This document shows positions 27,992 through 35,255 of a stretch of 64,000 bases of DNA, piece by piece; position 1 is the first letter of the stretch; each line of letters opens with the position of its first letter. The stretch spans positions 1 to 64,000 of the forward strand of contig NZ_ANAC01000018.1 of NCBI RefSeq assembly GCF_000341225.1, in the 5' to 3' direction. This DNA comes from Nocardiopsis alba DSM 43377 (GTDB lineage: Bacteria > Actinomycetota > Actinomycetes > Streptosporangiales > Streptosporangiaceae). Under the pieces are notes generated by a model, which was not told the DNA's origin, made no database searches, and was given only the letters and a program-made list of their open reading frames with translations. The position numbers were made by a program, and so were the translations under genes.

Positions 27992-29230
27992 ATGCCCAAG
28001 GACCTGTACGAACTCGGAGAGGTGCCGCCCCTGGGCCACGTGCCCGCGCGAATGCACGCCTTCACCATTCGGCGTGAGCGCTACGGCGAGCCGCGCGACG
28101 CCTTCGCCCACGAGATCGTCCCCGTACCCGAGCTGCGGCCCGGGCACGTGCTCATCTGGACGATGTCGGCCGGGATCAACTACAACAACATCTGGGCGGC
28201 CAAGGGGCACCCCGCCGACGTCATCGCCGCGCGGGAGAAGGCCGGAGAGACGGAGGACTACCACGTCGGCGGTTCCGACGGGGCCGGGGTGGTCTGGGCC
28301 GTCGGCGAGGGGGTCAGCGGGGTCGAGGTCGGCGACCACGTCATCATCGCCCCCGGGCAGTGGGACGAGACCGCGGACGACATCCGCATGGGCGGCGATC
28401 CCATCGCCTCCAAGACCATGCGGGTGTGGGGGTACGAGAACAACCACGGGTCCTTCGGGCAGTTCACCCTCGCCCGCGACGTCCAGCTCCATCGCAAGCC
28501 CGCCGACCTTCCCTGGGACGTCGCCGGAGGCTTCCTGGTCAGCGCCGCCACCTCCTACCGTCAGCTCTTCGGCTGGGAGCCCAACGTGGTCCGTCCCGGG
28601 GACCCCGTCCTGATCTGGGGCGGCGCGGGTGGTCTGGGCACCTCGGCGATCCAGTTGGCGAGCATGGTCGGAGGCAAGCCGGTCGCCGTGGTCTCCACGG
28701 AGGAGAAGGCGAAGGTGTGCCGTGAGCTCGGAGCCGTGGGCACCATCCTGCGCACCGAGTTCGACCACTGGGGCCGTGTCCCCGACGAGGGCGACATCCA
28801 GGCCTACTCCGAGTGGATGCGCGGTGTGCGCTCCTTCGGGAAGAGGTTCTGGGCCGAGCTCGGGGAGCGGCGCGCCCCCCGCATCGTGTTCGAGCACACC
28901 GGTGCCGACACCCTGCCCACCTCCCTGTACCTGTGCGACAACTCCGGCATGGTGGTGATCTGCGGGGCCACCTCGGGCTTCCAGGCCGACGTCGACCTCC
29001 GATTCCTCTGGATGCGCCTCAAGCGGCTCCAGGGCTCCCACTTCGCCTCGCCGGCCCAGTGCCGCATGGTCATCGATCTGGTCGAGAACGGGCGCCTCGA
29101 CCCCTGTGTGACCCGCGTCGTGGGCTTCCACGAGATCGGTGAGGCCCACCAGCTCCTGCGGGACAACAGGCAGCCTCCCGGCAACATGGCCGCTCTCGTC
29201 AACGCCGCACCGGGCCAGACCGGCCTGTAG
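27992..29230 (+). CDS. ccr: Crotonyl-CoA carboxylase/reductase-like enzyme
   Basis: The 412-residue MDR-fold protein matches crotonyl-CoA carboxylase/reductase, which reductively carboxylates enoyl-CoA to alkylmalonyl-CoA, for example ethylmalonyl-CoA. Seen motifs are INYNNIW, YHVGGSDGAGVVW, the cofactor loop WGGAGGLGTSAIQLA, RRAPRIVFEHTG and LWMRLKRLQGSHF. Of the four CO2-pocket residues described for the family (Asn, Phe, Glu, His), the Phe appears as Tyr148 while Glu149 and His350 are kept. It is shorter than the usual 445 residues. AAAGGA precedes the ATG at 27992. Standing 6.4 kb from the PKS genes on the same strand, it may supply their extender unit; it could also serve the ethylmalonyl-CoA pathway. 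Confidence 0.85.
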   Translation: MPKDLYELGEVPPLGHVPARMHAFTIRRERYGEPRDAFAHEIVPVPELRPGHVLIWTMSAGINYNNIWAAKGHPADVIAAREKAGETEDYHVGGSDGAGVVWAVGEGVSGVEVGDHVIIAPGQWDETADDIRMGGDPIASKTMRVWGYENNHGSFGQFTLARDVQLHRKPADLPWDVAGGFLVSAATSYRQLFGWEPNVVRPGDPVLIWGGAGGLGTSAIQLASMVGGKPVAVVSTEEKAKVCRELGAVGTILRTEFDHWGRVPDEGDIQAYSEWMRGVRSFGKRFWAELGERRAPRIVFEHTGADTLPTSLYLCDNSGMVVICGATSGFQADVDLRFLWMRLKRLQGSHFASPAQCRMVIDLVENGRLDPCVTRVVGFHEIGEAHQLLRDNRQPPGNMAALVNAAPGQTGL

Positions 29231-29332
29231 CGGATCGAGGGGGCGGGGCCGTCCTCGGGGGTGGAGGAAGACCCGGACGCGGGCCCGTCCGGGCCTCTCG
29301 CGGACCCGGTTCCTTGAGAGGATCGGGGTTTC

Positions 29333-29354
29333 GTCTCATCTTTCGAGATGAGGC
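29333..29354 (+). terminator. UUCG-loop hairpin after ccr
   Basis: CTCATCT-TTCG-AGATGAG, a 7-bp stem capped by a stable tetraloop and extendable by two pairs, lies about 100 bases after the ccr stop, with GATTTT a few bases later. Confidence 0.55.
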
Positions 29355-29901
29355 GGAAAGGATTTTCGAGGTGGGGGAGAGGGGTCTCCGGGAGGCCTTC
29401 GAGGAAGTGCCCAGGTAGGCGGGGTGCGGAGGTTCCTTGGGGGAGTTGGGAAAGAAGGGAAGGTGTTGGTGGTCACAAGGTGATGACTCTTGGCGAGAAC
29501 CGGACAAAATAGTGCAAATCGGACAAAAGGCTTCTGTTCGGGATGCTGATCCCACGCTGTTCGCGCACGTCACAAGGGTCTCGGGGGGTGCTTTTTCAGT
29601 GCTTCTTTGATTCTTCTGTCAAGGCGGGCGACCTTTGTTAGTCTGGCGAACCGAACGACGGTTCCCGGTGGAAGAGCAGGAATTGGGCGGAGTGCGTACT
29701 CTTGTCCTTCGGATCAGGGGTCCGGTCGCCGCTCGCGGCGACGGACGCCGAGGCCCCACCGAAACCGTCGAGGCGTTCCCCCGACGATCGGGACGCCTGG
29801 CCGCCAGGGACCGATCGTGGCCCCCGATGGCTTCCTCCCTGGTCAGGGCGGTGGTGCGGGGCCGCCGCCAATCCGCCCACCTGATTCGAGGAGACGAGAT
29901 T
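29355..29901. other. Intergenic region upstream of the conservon
   Basis: No gene is supported between ccr and the conservon. The stretch 29480-29640 is AT-richer than its surroundings and must contain the conservon promoter. It holds the direct repeat described at 29501-29528. Frames that stay open from 29635 have no ribosome site before 29902. Confidence 0.6.
29501..29528. promoter_or_regulatory. Direct repeat CGGACAAAA
   Basis: CGGACAAAA occurs at 29501-29509 and again at 29520-29528, a 19-base period close to two helical turns. Tandem sites on one face of the DNA suggest a cooperative regulator of the conservon operon. The regulator is unknown. Confidence 0.4.
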
Positions 29902-32440
29902 GTGGCACAGGCGCAGTCACCGCATGAGCGCGATGACCTCCCCCTGGCCAAGATGATGTCGACGGAGGATGGGCGTGGAGCCAGGCGTGAAGGAAGGTTC
30001 CGCCGGGCCATCTCCCGGATGGTCAAGTCCCAGGAACCCCCGTCACCGGAGACCGAGCAAGGACATCCCGTGCATAAGCCCGTGCATCCGCACTCGCACA
30101 GCCCCGACCGGAAGTCGGACGGCGAGGAGACATCCGCGACGGAGCCCCCCCACCGGACCCTTCTCCGCGTCCGCCGAGAACGGTTACCGCCCCACATCCC
30201 GGGTGAGCGTACCGAATCCCTACACGACCAGGCGGGTCGAGGTCGACGATGTCGACACCGGCGCCAATCCGGTCGGTCAGTGGCGCGGTGTCGGCCTCGA
30301 CGAGCCCGAACCACGCAGCAAGCCCACCCTCGCCACCACGGACACCATGACCGAGACGCCCTCCTCACCAGAGAGCACAGAGCGGCCCGAGGCCCCTGTG
30401 CCCCCCACGACCGAACAGCGGCCGACCCCCGGCCCGTCCGCGCCCCCGGTCGAACCCGCGCGGCTCCTCGCCGAGCCCGCGCAGCGAACGCAGCCCCAGC
30501 CCCACCACCAGCCCACGGAGGTCGCGATGCCCGAGGCCTCCGGCGCCCCTCGCCCCGAAGCGGACCGCCCGATCCCGCAGGGAGCCCCCGCGCCCTCGTC
30601 CTACGCGGGCCCGAGCGAGCCCGCGTACGACCCGCGCGGCCAAGAGCCGCCGGCGCACCACCCGCAGCAGCCGGCCCCTCAGGGCCCGCCGCCCGCCTAC
30701 GACCCCTACGCCCAGCAGGGTCACCCCTTCCAGGGGCACGTGCCCCCGGGCTACGGGCACCAGGGCCAGGGCTACCCGGCCCGGCACGAGCCGGCCCCCT
30801 ACCAGCCGCAGCGGCACGAGGGCCACGCCCCGCCCGCACACTACCCGTCGCCCTACCAGCAGAGGGTCGACTACCCGGTCGTGCCGCCCTATCCCGCGCC
30901 GCAGCCGGCCCCGTACCCGCACCCCCTGGTGGCCTACCAGAACGCCTACCCGGCCCCCTACCAGCCGCCCGGCTACGTCCTTCCGGGACAGCCGGTGGTC
31001 TACCCGGGTCAGTTCCACCCCTACGGCCAGCCCGTCCAGCACGTCATCGTGCTCAGCGCGGGCCAGCAGCCGCAGGTGATCACCGCGGAGTCGGCCGCCA
31101 CCCTCTTCGCCGAGCGGAGCGAGACCACGGCCTCCGAGGAGGTCGCCCAGAACAAGGCCCTGACCGGGTCGGAGTCGGTGGAGGAGTCCACCGACGAGTC
31201 CCGCGCGAAGACGGAGGAGGAGACGCCCTCCCCGAGCGCGGCCGAGGACACCGACTCCTCGACCGAGGTGGCTTCGGAGAAGGACGAGATCGCCAAGGCC
31301 AAGGCCGAGGTGGCCGAGGCCGTCTCCGAGGTGCTGCGCGACTCCAAGGGAGAGCTGCTCAACGAGGCGCTGGCCGGACTGGCCATGCGCGACCTCTCCC
31401 TGGTGGACGCCCTGCTGGAGATGGTCGAGTCCCTGGAGACCGACGCCCAGGACCCGGACCTGCTCGACAAGCTGTTCCAGATCGACAACTTCGCGACCCG
31501 TATGCGACGTAACGGGGAGAACCTCCTGGTGCTGACCGGGCACGACGGTGGAGAGTCCGACGCGCACGACGAGATCGTGCCCCTGCTCGACGTCGCACGC
31601 GCCGCGACCTCGGAGATCAAGGACTATCCCAGGGTCAGTCTGGGCAAGCTTCCGCAGACCTCCATCACCGGTCTGGCCGCCGACGACATCAGCCACCTGC
31701 TCGCCGAGCTCCTGGACAACGCCACCGCGAACTCCCCGGAGCACTCCCAGGTGGTGATCAGCGCCCAGGAGATGGACGACGGTCGCCTGATGATCATCGT
31801 CGAGGACGAGGGCGTGGGTATCCCCGAGGCCCAGCTGGTCGAGCTCAACAGCCGTCTGGACGGCGAGCCGGTCCTGGACGACGAGGTGCCCAAGCACATG
31901 GGTCTGTACGTGGCCAGCCGGATCGCGCAGAAGCACGGTCTGGAGACCCGCCTGGAGTCCCGCTCCTTCCGCGGCGTCAGCGCCTACACGATCATCCCCA
32001 AGGATCTGCTCCGCGTGGCCACGACGAGACAGCCCGGCCAGGCCCGGACCTCCACGACCCCGGCGACCAACACCCCCGCGAGCCGTACCGTTCCGCAGCA
32101 GCCCTCCTACGGAGGCGGCGCGAACGGGACCACCGGCAACGGCGCCGGCGGCAACAGCGGCCCCAAGGCCTCTCCGGCGGCCTCGGGCGGGAACTCCTCG
32201 GTCACCTCCGCGGGACTGCCCCGTCGTAGTGCCACACCACACGGTTCCCCGCTGCGGATGATGCCGCACCCCGGGGCCCTCTCCGACAACCCGCCGCCCC
32301 CGCCGAAGGGCCGGGAGGACACCCCTCCCAGGCTCACCGGCGAGGCCCGAGCCGAACAGATCCGCGACGAACTCGGCGACTTCCTCGACGGAGAACGGGC
32401 GGCCCTCGAAGGCAAGGACCTCGAGGACGGCAAGGAATGA
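29902..32440 (+). CDS. cvnA: Conservon histidine-kinase-like ATPase, apparent 5' frameshift
   Basis: The kinase-like ATPase of a cvnABCD conservon. The GHKL fold is clear: N-box ELLDNATANSP, G1 EDEGVGIPEAQL, G2 KHMGLYVASRIAQKHG. It is preceded by a helical region (LAGLAMRDLSLVDALLEM, then NFATRMRRNGENLLVLTG), as in other CvnA proteins. A very Pro/Tyr/Gln-rich segment of about 170 residues comes before that, and no transmembrane segment is seen. The ATPase frame is open from ATG 29969. The only good start (GTG 29902, GGAG eight bases before) is in another frame that codes well up to a run of seven C at 30145-30151. Removing one C joins the two into an 845-residue protein. Otherwise translation may begin at GTG 30203 without a ribosome site. 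Confidence 0.8.
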
Positions 32441-32528: not shown

Positions 32529-32954
32529 ATGACTGAACCCAACAACGACAGCGTCGAGAACTTCTCGTGGCTCATCGACCGCTTCGTCCGCGACGTGCGC
32601 GGTGTCGAGCATGCCGTGGTGGTCTCCTCCGACGGCCTGGTCCTCACCCACTCCAGCGACTTCCCCGAGGAGCACGCCGAGCAGCTCGCGGCGATCGCCA
32701 GCGGTCTGCACAGCCTCGCGGTGGGCGGGGCCGGACTGTTCCAGCGGGGCGAGTGCGAGCAGCTGCTGGTGCGTTTCAACCACGGCCATCTCTTCATCAT
32801 GGCCATCAATGACGGTTCCTGCATGGCGGTGCTGACCGCACCCGGTACGGAGCTGAAGATCGTCGGTTTCCAGATGGCCAAGCTCGTGGACAACGTCGCC
32901 CATGTGCTCACGCCGCAGCTGCGCTCGCAGCTGCGTGAGGTCATCCAGAACTGA
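32529..32954 (+). CDS. cvnB: Roadblock/LC7 domain protein of the conservon
   Basis: The 141-residue protein is a single roadblock/LC7 domain (FSWLIDRFVRDVRGVEHAVVVSSDGLVL through GSCMAVLTAPGTELKIVGFQM, split in the reading here). It is the usual CvnB, a partner that bridges the kinase-like ATPase and the small GTPase. It lies 88 bases after cvnA on the same strand. GCAGGTAGAG lies upstream of the ATG at 32529. Cytoplasmic; no enzymatic residues expected. Confidence 0.92.
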   Translation: MTEPNNDSVENFSWLIDRFVRDVRGVEHAVVVSSDGLVLTHSSDFPEEHAEQLAAIASGLHSLAVGGAGLFQRGECEQLLVRFNHGHLFIMAINDGSCMAVLTAPGTELKIVGFQMAKLVDNVAHVLTPQLRSQLREVIQN

Positions 32955-33002: not shown

Positions 33003-33362
33003 ATGAGTTTCCGAAGGCGAAGGAGTAATCGTGTTCGCCCGTTCACCTTCACGGGTGGGCGTACACGGTCGCGGCATCCGCTGATGGTGCAGACCCTGGT
33101 CTCGACGTCCGAGCCCGGGCAGGACCCTCCTGGCACCCTCATGCCGGAGTCGATCAATATCTACAAACTGTGCCGGGAGACCCGGTCTCTCGCCGAGGTC
33201 TCGGCCGAGCTGAACATCCCGCTGGGTGTCACCCAGGTTCTGGTCAGTGACCTGGCCGAGCAGGACCTGGTGTACATCCACCCGACCATCACCGGCAGCA
33301 GTCCGTCCGAAAACCAGGTTCTGGAGAGGGCTCTTCGTGGTCTCGAACGACTTTTCCAGTGA
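33003..33362 (+). CDS. cvnC: DUF742 protein of the conservon
   Basis: The 119-residue protein carries the DUF742 pattern: a basic lead, then RPFTFTGGRTRSRH, MVQTLVST, the helix-turn-helix-like SLAEVSAELNIPLGVTQVLVSDLAEQ and LERALRGLERL. This is the standard CvnC. Its role is unproven but it is thought to join the GTPase complex at the membrane. The ATG at 33003 has only a weak GAGG site. The 3' end overlaps the GTPase start by 26 bases, as in most conservons. Confidence 0.9.
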   Translation: MSFRRRRSNRVRPFTFTGGRTRSRHPLMVQTLVSTSEPGQDPPGTLMPESINIYKLCRETRSLAEVSAELNIPLGVTQVLVSDLAEQDLVYIHPTITGSSPSENQVLERALRGLERLFQ

Positions 33363-33942
33363 CAACAGGTCGAATCGCAAGAAGATGTCGAGCAAGATCG
33401 TCATCGCCGGTGGCTTCGGTGCCGGCAAGACGACCTTGGTCCGCTCGGTGTCGGAGATTCCGCCGGTCACGACTGAAGCGATAATGACCGAGGCCAGCGT
33501 CGGACACGACGACACCTCGGTCACCCCCGACAAGACGACGACCACCGTCGCGATGGACTTCGGTCGCATCACCATCGACGACGAGCTGGTCATGTACATG
33601 TTCGGTACGCCGGGCCAGGCACGGTTCTGGTTCATGTGGGACGACCTCGTGCGCGGCGCGGTGGGCGCCGTCGTCGTGGTCGACTGCCGCAGGCTCGCGG
33701 ACTCCTTCGACGCCGTCGACTACTTCGAGACGCAGAAGCGGATCCCCTACATCGTCGCGCTCAACAAGTTCGAGGGACGTCTCGACTACACCTCCGAGCA
33801 GGTCCGTGAGGCCCTGGAGGTCAGCCCGGACGTGCCCATCATCGACTTCGACGCTCGGCACCGGATGTCCGGGGGCGACGTGCTCAAGACGCTGCTGAGG
33901 TACGCGCTGGAGCACAACCGGGCGAGCGAGCCCGTCGCCTGA
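33337..33942 (+). CDS. cvnD: Ras-like GTPase of the conservon
   Basis: The 201-residue protein has the P-loop GGFGAGKTTLV, the G3 region MFGTPGQARFWFMWDDL with Thr/Pro in place of the usual Asp-containing motif, and G4 NKFEG. This is the MglA/Rab-like branch found in conservons. It should switch between GTP and GDP states in response to the kinase-like protein. I start it at the GTG 33337, seven bases after GGAGAGG, giving a 26-base overlap with cvnC; the ATG at 33385 would remove 16 residues. Confidence 0.92.
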   Translation: MVSNDFSSDNRSNRKKMSSKIVIAGGFGAGKTTLVRSVSEIPPVTTEAIMTEASVGHDDTSVTPDKTTTTVAMDFGRITIDDELVMYMFGTPGQARFWFMWDDLVRGAVGAVVVVDCRRLADSFDAVDYFETQKRIPYIVALNKFEGRLDYTSEQVREALEVSPDVPIIDFDARHRMSGGDVLKTLLRYALEHNRASEPVA

Positions 33943-33998: not shown

Positions 33999-35255
33999 AT
34001 GCGCAAGATCCTTATCGTCGGTGCCGGCCATGCCGGCCTGCACCTGGCCCACGGTCTCCTGACCCATGGCTACGACGTCACGGTGATCACGGGGCAGTCC
34101 TCACCGGAGATCAGGACCGGGAAGCCCTCCATCTCCCAGTTCACCCTGCCCACCGCCCTGGACTATGAGCGGAAGTTCGACCTCGACTTCTGGAGCGCCC
34201 TATCGCCCCAGATCCGCGAGCAGAAGCTGTTCATGTACGTCCAGGGGCAGGCCGTCGCCTCCCTCCAGGGCCGCTCGCATCCGGGCAACGGCTACAGCGT
34301 CTCGGTGGACCGTCGGGTGAAGATGGCCGACTGGCTGGAGTTCTTCGAGGACCGGGGCGGCAGGGTGGTGATCCACGGGGTCACGGTGACCGACCTCGAC
34401 TACTTCTCCCGGATGTTCGACCTGATCATCGTCGCTGTCGGCCACGGGGAGCTTGGCCAGCTCTTCGACGATGACGACAGTCGGTTCAGCGGTACCAGGC
34501 CGCGCGCCCTCGCGCAGGCCTACATGTACGACGTCTGGCCCGACCCGGGGGAGAACGAGAACCTCGGCTGGTCCGCCGTGACCCAGGAGGCGGGGAACAT
34601 CATCTTCATCCCCATCCTGAGTCAGGAGGGGCCCTGCCACAGTCTGCTCATGGTCGACCAGAAGGGCGGCCCGATGGACGCCTGGCCGGACCGGCCGGGC
34701 CCGGAGGAGCAGCTGCGTCGGATGAAGGATCTGACGCGCAAGTACGCCCCGGACTTCTTCGAGAGGATCCGGGACGCGGTGCTCATCGATGGGCGCAGCA
34801 CCCTGGTGGAGGATCTGACCCCGCAGGTGCGCAACCCGGTGGGCAAGCTGCCCTCGGGCGGCCGTGTCCTGGGTATGGCGGACGTGGTCGTGACGATGGA
34901 CCCCTTCGTGGGGCAGACCTGGAACAACTCCACGCGCTGTGCCCAGGCCTACCTGGACAGCATCATCGAACACGGAGAGCGGCCGTTCGATGAGGAATTC
35001 CTGGTCGGAGCCTTCGACCGATTCTGGAAATTCGGACAGGACAATCAGATGTGGGCGGAGTTCGCCTCCACGATGTGGGAGCAGGACCTTCCCGAGCACA
35101 TCTCCAGCGTCATGAACGCGGCCTCGCAGTACCAGGAGATCGCCGACCGGTGGATCCAGGCCTGGGACCAGCCCTCCGACTACCAGACGTGGCTCTTCGA
35201 CAAGGAGGCCTCCCAGCGTTATCTGGAGGAGGTCAAGGCCCGTAACGGAGGATGA
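33999..35255 (+). CDS. Styrene/indole monooxygenase-like flavoprotein
   Basis: The 418-residue protein matches the StyA/indole monooxygenase family. These are two-component FAD monooxygenases that need an outside reductase. The N-terminal dinucleotide fold is ILIVGAGHAGLHLAHGL, and the second FAD contact is GRVLGMADVVVTMDPFVGQ, followed by the SMO-specific NNSTRCAQAYLDSI. No reductase (StyB) is next to it. It lies 56 bases after cvnD on the same strand and before a strong terminator, so it is probably the fifth gene of the conservon operon. Such flavoproteins recur beside conservons in actinobacteria. Substrate unknown; a link to the PKS product is possible but not shown. Confidence 0.85.
   Translation: MRKILIVGAGHAGLHLAHGLLTHGYDVTVITGQSSPEIRTGKPSISQFTLPTALDYERKFDLDFWSALSPQIREQKLFMYVQGQAVASLQGRSHPGNGYSVSVDRRVKMADWLEFFEDRGGRVVIHGVTVTDLDYFSRMFDLIIVAVGHGELGQLFDDDDSRFSGTRPRALAQAYMYDVWPDPGENENLGWSAVTQEAGNIIFIPILSQEGPCHSLLMVDQKGGPMDAWPDRPGPEEQLRRMKDLTRKYAPDFFERIRDAVLIDGRSTLVEDLTPQVRNPVGKLPSGGRVLGMADVVVTMDPFVGQTWNNSTRCAQAYLDSIIEHGERPFDEEFLVGAFDRFWKFGQDNQMWAEFASTMWEQDLPEHISSVMNAASQYQEIADRWIQAWDQPSDYQTWLFDKEASQRYLEEVKARNGG

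Follow-up and report, generated by a model that had tools for sequence, protein, structure and literature searches.

What does it mean when a kinase gene at the head of a signalling operon changes reading frame at a run of seven C, and is such a run a device of the gene or an accident of its sequence? The gene in question, cvnA of Nocardiopsis alba DSM 43377, lies in a stretch of DNA of 64,000 nucleotides from contig NZ_ANAC01000018.1 (called the window throughout), and judged by its sequence it is the head of a conservon, that is, of an operon for an actinobacterial G-protein system. Our answer, in which we have high confidence, is that a normally continuous cvnA has undergone a one-base expansion from C6 to C7, in the N. 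alba sequence only and without any regulatory programme; the base was presumably added by slippage, whether as a recent replication slip in the cell or as an error of sequencing or assembly. The parts of the locus are these:

29890 to 29893, plus strand: GGAG, resembling a ribosome site, eight bases 5' of GTG 29902, in a near-invariant flanking stretch.
29902 to 30144, plus strand: N-terminal 81 codons of cvnA (VAQAQSPHERDD...SATE) in frame 1; in all 36 relatives this part is open and continues in frame into the ATPase part.
29902 to 31512, plus strand: the unshifted product, 536 codons, out of frame and without the ATPase.
29964 to 29977, plus strand: GGAGG and GTG 29975, where translation might begin internally in the ATPase frame and give an unrelated N-terminus; unsupported by relatives.
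30145 to 30151, plus strand: the run of seven C and frame break, one base longer than in all relatives (alignment of 37 loci).
30152 to 32440, plus strand: the remainder of cvnA in the other frame, with a Pro-rich linker, a DHp-like helix and HATPase_c, and the stop at 32438-32440.

An earlier note on this DNA had described a GTG start with a ribosome site at 29902, a frame break at seven C and a protein of 845 residues on dropping one C, and in all of this it was right: GAGGAG precedes the GTG, the run and the break are present in the sequence as claimed, and the two parts minus the extra base come, by simple arithmetic, to 845 codons. It was mistaken in denying the downstream frame a start with a ribosome site, since GTG 29975 has GGAGG at 29964-29968 with six bases between them, and another GTG in the ATPase frame, at 29987, has GGAG at 29977-29980. 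A ribosome that keeps to the broken frame would read the run as CCC CCC CAC, and the frame from 29902 stops at 31510 after 536 codons, in which a Pfam profile search found no domain; the ATPase frame, free of stops between 29957 and 32437, carries an HATPase_c match (Pfam E 4.5e-11).

The evidence that carries our answer comes from relatives in the same genus. A DNA search of 40 genus genomes, one per species and including our own, matched the region in 37, so that it is present in 36 of the 39 others, with three genomes giving no match, and the 37 loci were aligned. All 36 relatives have the N-terminal part and the ATPase part in one open frame (31 by script, from the same GTG start and an ATPase-side motif, and five that the pattern had missed and that were read separately), and the fused N-terminus reading EPPTGPF, which the earlier note had told us to look for, stands exactly so in eight of them. 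Indels between relatives over the N-terminal part are multiples of three, as read by eye from the alignment, and no second break of the cvnA frame was seen among the 36. As far as homologous sequences can tell, cvnA ancestrally and normally encodes a single fused protein. At the site itself none of the 36 relatives has seven C; there are six in seven of them (L002-L005 and L007-L009, with L008 identical to L009 over the part compared), and the run is interrupted in the other 29, reading CCCTCC in L006, CCGCCC in L010 and quite different codons elsewhere. Because the extra C is absent from all relatives, it is a change in the N. alba sequence alone, an additional base inside a homopolymer that intact homologues do without.

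The same relatives weigh on two other accounts of the locus. It might consist of two separate genes, or of a shorter CvnA that starts downstream (for example at GTG 29975, 29987 or 30203), and the well-spaced GGAGG before GTG 29975 would suit such a start; but the N-terminal part is fused in frame to the ATPase part in the relatives, none of the 36 backs GTG 29975 or GTG 29987 as a real start, and homologues that begin near 30203 with nothing of the 29902 frame were looked for among them and not found, all of which makes this account extremely improbable. Programmed +1 ribosomal frameshifting at CCC-CCC-C would join both frames at a site of the CCC-C type, a slippery sequence that passages of PMC4519876 treat as known and as causing, at the second codon in E. 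coli, +1 shifts at rates of up to 1%. Not one of the 36 relatives needs a shift, however, nor is a frame transition conserved in any of them, and we regard programming as very unlikely.

Could the run instead be a switch? It is the only C7 in the 64 kb on both strands, against 75.4 (sd 11.9) expected from dinucleotide shuffles; C6 has 35 matches in the window against 220 expected, and C7 has 114 overlapping matches in the 5.8 Mb of the whole genome. Strong avoidance of C7 in the window is what one would expect if such tracts slip, and a case for phase variation, with the C tract turning the conservon reversibly ON and OFF, could draw on this as well as on a regulatory gene having seven C in a row close to its 5' end, in a genome with no detectable MutS. 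With MutS lacking, slippage at a C6/C7 off switch would generate a cvnA-off sub-population that leaks slightly, by +1 slippage at CCC-CCC-C or a restart at GTG 29975, and the G-protein module would come to differ from cell to cell, a scheme to which we accord little probability. Set against phase variation is the fact that the relatives have not kept a slippery tract, the run being absent as C7 and mostly interrupted, and we think it improbable. Among the causes that the earlier note had offered, then, programmed frameshifting and a conserved form of phase variation are without support, and the choice is between a slip in sequencing and a slippage mutation that happened once.

We are thus back at a single-base expansion in a normally continuous gene, and it is natural to ask whether it happened in the cell or in the data. 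Beyond the break cvnA shows no further damage in its frame (open to 32437), its dN/dS or its identity: downstream of 30203, dN/dS is 0.37-0.54 between our sequence and eight relatives against 0.39-0.58 among the relatives (among the pairs listed), and over the ATPase part nucleotide identity is 0.897 between our sequence and relatives and 0.896 between one relative and another. A gene that is otherwise undamaged implies a break that is either very recent or not real. The absence of decay, the extra C being a singleton among 37 loci, and the expectation, in passages of PMC3711429, that homology-validated single frameshifts are mostly sequencing errors all favour a base-calling or assembly error, with C6 and an intact cvnA in the living strain, and to this we give almost an even chance. 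Somewhat under an even chance goes to a real recent slippage mutation that leaves this strain with an inactive or weakened conservon, as a culture- or niche-related loss; that cvnA has not decayed further counts against it, as does the presence of the region in so many other genus genomes with no second break.

How other tracts of the genome behave is informative for both. We compared the coding frame on both sides of each tract by codon bias in 63 stretches (249 kb) round C/G tracts of at least seven, among the matches listed, a sample therefore centred on tracts of that length. The frame changed at 5 of the 15 scorable tracts of 7-9 bases (among the matches listed) and at none of the 46 of length six, with 48 of the 63 tracts of 7-9 and 90 of the 136 of length six set aside as unclear or as strand changes; the difference has a Fisher p of 5e-4, or of 0.009 with only the three homologue-confirmed cases (tracts listed). 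Shorter tracts in the 249 kb showed a change in 9 of 374 cases (length five) and 16 of 1211 (length four). That length-six runs keep frame in every scorable case indicates an assembly not generally poor at homopolymers, and it speaks against error at the C7. The three confirmed cases among the five are the window C7, L099, where a G7 tract has one base more than in seven of seven relatives, and L111, where a G8 tract has one base more than in four of four. The last two look like decayed genes in sequence comparison, L099 having an identity of 0.70 to its relatives, which share 0.81 with one another, and L111 one of 0.69, where its relatives share 0.83, and their signs of decay suggest real slippage in the lineage more than poor assembly, in favour of a real mutation in cvnA too; the resemblance of both to real pseudogenes is a further point against error. 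Their shift sites are both found at about 1497-1506. Putative shifts at L094 and L119 lie where relatives barely match, and that at L103 was called by the codon-bias test at one setting only; one at L126, from an intrinsic frame test at one setting, was rejected, since homologues show it to be in frame and close to the gene end. A C13 run at L073 (G000:C3:242445-242457) is followed by the contig end six bases further on and is possibly an assembly end effect. Two relatives' genomes had shifts at 1 of 6 and 0 of 3 tracts, the codon-bias test calling one at L153 of relative G037, and the comparison of our genome with these two (5/17 against 1/9) is not significant (p 0.38).

The repair systems of the genome are also relevant. 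No match to MutS_V was found in it, while 11 of 14 control genomes matched, and it has one NucS. Passages of a review (PMC8228993) describe NucS repair as unable to correct indels, and according to passages of PMC11109965 one Streptomyces that lost NucS had no considerable change in its indel rate. With NucS present and MutS not detectable, indels in tracts would go unrepaired, which makes a real slip plausible, and the breaks at tracts of at least seven are in line with mismatch repair that leaves indels unfixed. One-base expansion of a G7 tract, with inactivation of the gene, is moreover documented for glpK of Mycobacterium tuberculosis in passages of PMC6667613. If the C7 is real, the main product would be the ATPase-less protein of 536 residues; +1 slippage at CCC-CCC-C, restoring the ATPase frame, might still yield traces of full-length CvnA, and initiation at GTG 29975 would produce an ATPase whose N-terminus is foreign.

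The N-terminal part of cvnA has a second peculiarity, which is synonymous conservation over 29902-30144 (the first 80 or so codons), with a peak at about 30022-30099. Between our sequence and relatives dS is 0.02-0.20 here against 0.50-0.62 in the rest of cvnA, and among six relatives the columns of invariant residues show one and the same codon in 41 of 50 cases over the first 82 codons, compared with 207 of 383 further on (Fisher p 1.2e-4); a doubled GTGCAT does not vary across 36 aligned loci, its CAT codons included. Tests of a second frame, an RNA fold and a dispersed motif did not find the cause. Dual coding was rejected, since only the cvnA frame is stop-free in all of L001-L027 (27 of the 37 loci); Rfam gave no meaningful match in 29200-30600, with one miRNA family far below cut-off; RNAalifold on 36 sequences, over a region ending at 30110 and so short of the C7 run, returned a covariation term of just -0.33, both sides having changed in 4 of 27 pairs; and CCGTGCATNNNCCNGTGCAT, considered as a dispersed DNA motif, occurs once without mismatch in each of six genomes, its counts at up to two mismatches looking overall no higher than in a reversed control. 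Upstream, an AGGAGA..GA stretch before the cvnA start is near-invariant, and the leader at 29842-29900 is conserved, with an inverted repeat GGCGGTGG...CCACCGCC 5' of the start in many relatives. A block at 29602-29690, 83-96% conserved in seven close relatives within a poorly conserved intergenic region, is perhaps a promoter.

Downstream of cvnA the operon continues with four further genes:

32529 to 32954, plus strand: cvnB, Roadblock/LC7 (Pfam E 5.9e-23).
33003 to 33362, plus strand: cvnC, DUF742 (Pfam E 7.9e-31).
33226 to 33942, plus strand: cvnD, small GTPase, longest open reading frame (PF03029 E 7.3e-29).
33999 to 35255, plus strand: fifth gene, StyA-like FAD monooxygenase (PF17885 E 9e-33).

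The window thus has, by Pfam, the four-gene conservon order of ATPase kinase, Roadblock/LC7, DUF742 and small GTPase. The real start of cvnD is probably near 33331, from where relatives match. Among the 27 named loci, some of them cut by ends, cvnB and cvnC are matched in all and cvnD in 25, and in 24 the StyA-like gene comes next after cvnD, with one more locus matching in part where its sequence ends (L063 and L064 stop short of the gene); against NF045732 the fifth gene scores 139.8 bits, below the cut-off of 550. In CvnA itself we found no TM, NIT or HAMP, its Pfam matches being to HATPase families only, and its best 19-residue hydropathy, 1.27, falls short of the 1.6 usually required of a membrane helix. 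At the presumed phospho-acceptor (about 31480-31515 in the window), where we take the usual residue to be His (DHp helix, H183 in CvnA8), an Asn follows ID (LFQIDNFATRMR, IDNFATRMR and variants) in 56 of the 56 readable loci among 64, a count with eight loci not readable and with some genomes, our own included, counted twice. After cvnD stands the StyA-like gene and not an accessory fifth gene of the CvnE (P450) or CvnF (GAF) type. Passages of PMC13343842 report accessory conservon genes of these two types where CvnA is without an extracytoplasmic sensor, and that they accompany a sensor-less CvnA fits our own CvnA, in which no sensor domain is recognised; it is possible that the StyA-like gene is a third accessory type beside them. 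The titles listed from one literature collection contained nothing on point for a conservon with a frameshift, in Nocardiopsis or with StyA.

What follows is first a corrected annotation, in which cvnA is one open reading frame; left uncorrected, it would be entered as a pseudogene or be given a wrong start. The second consequence is a view of where this genome is fragile, as frames within genes break at tracts of at least seven (tracts listed) and the window has far fewer C7 runs than expected. With cvnA whole in all 36 relatives, the frame break is best taken as an ordinary one-off slip or sequencing error and not as a control device.

Known systems offer three comparisons. The first is Cvn8 of Streptomyces coelicolor, which, as described in passages of PMC13343842, resembles our operon in its cvnA-B-C-D order and domains, in a fifth gene adjoining cvnD and in a CvnA with no recognised sensor domain; the differences are that our fifth gene is StyA-like and neither a P450 (CvnE) nor a GAF protein (CvnF), and that our CvnA showed no TM, NIT or HAMP in our searches and has Asn at the presumed phospho-acceptor. 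A second is glpK of M. tuberculosis, where passages of PMC6667613 describe the gain of one base in a G/C tract of seven that lies within the 5' half of the frame, likewise in an actinobacterium with non-canonical mismatch repair; glpK, however, varies in many isolates with a drug-tolerance phenotype, whereas the C7 of cvnA is known from one sequence and its relatives have six C at most. The third is with the singleton frameshifts of the GeneTack survey, as passages of PMC3711429 present them, since the break in cvnA is equally single, confirmed by homologues and without a conserved shift site, and we saw no difference between the two.
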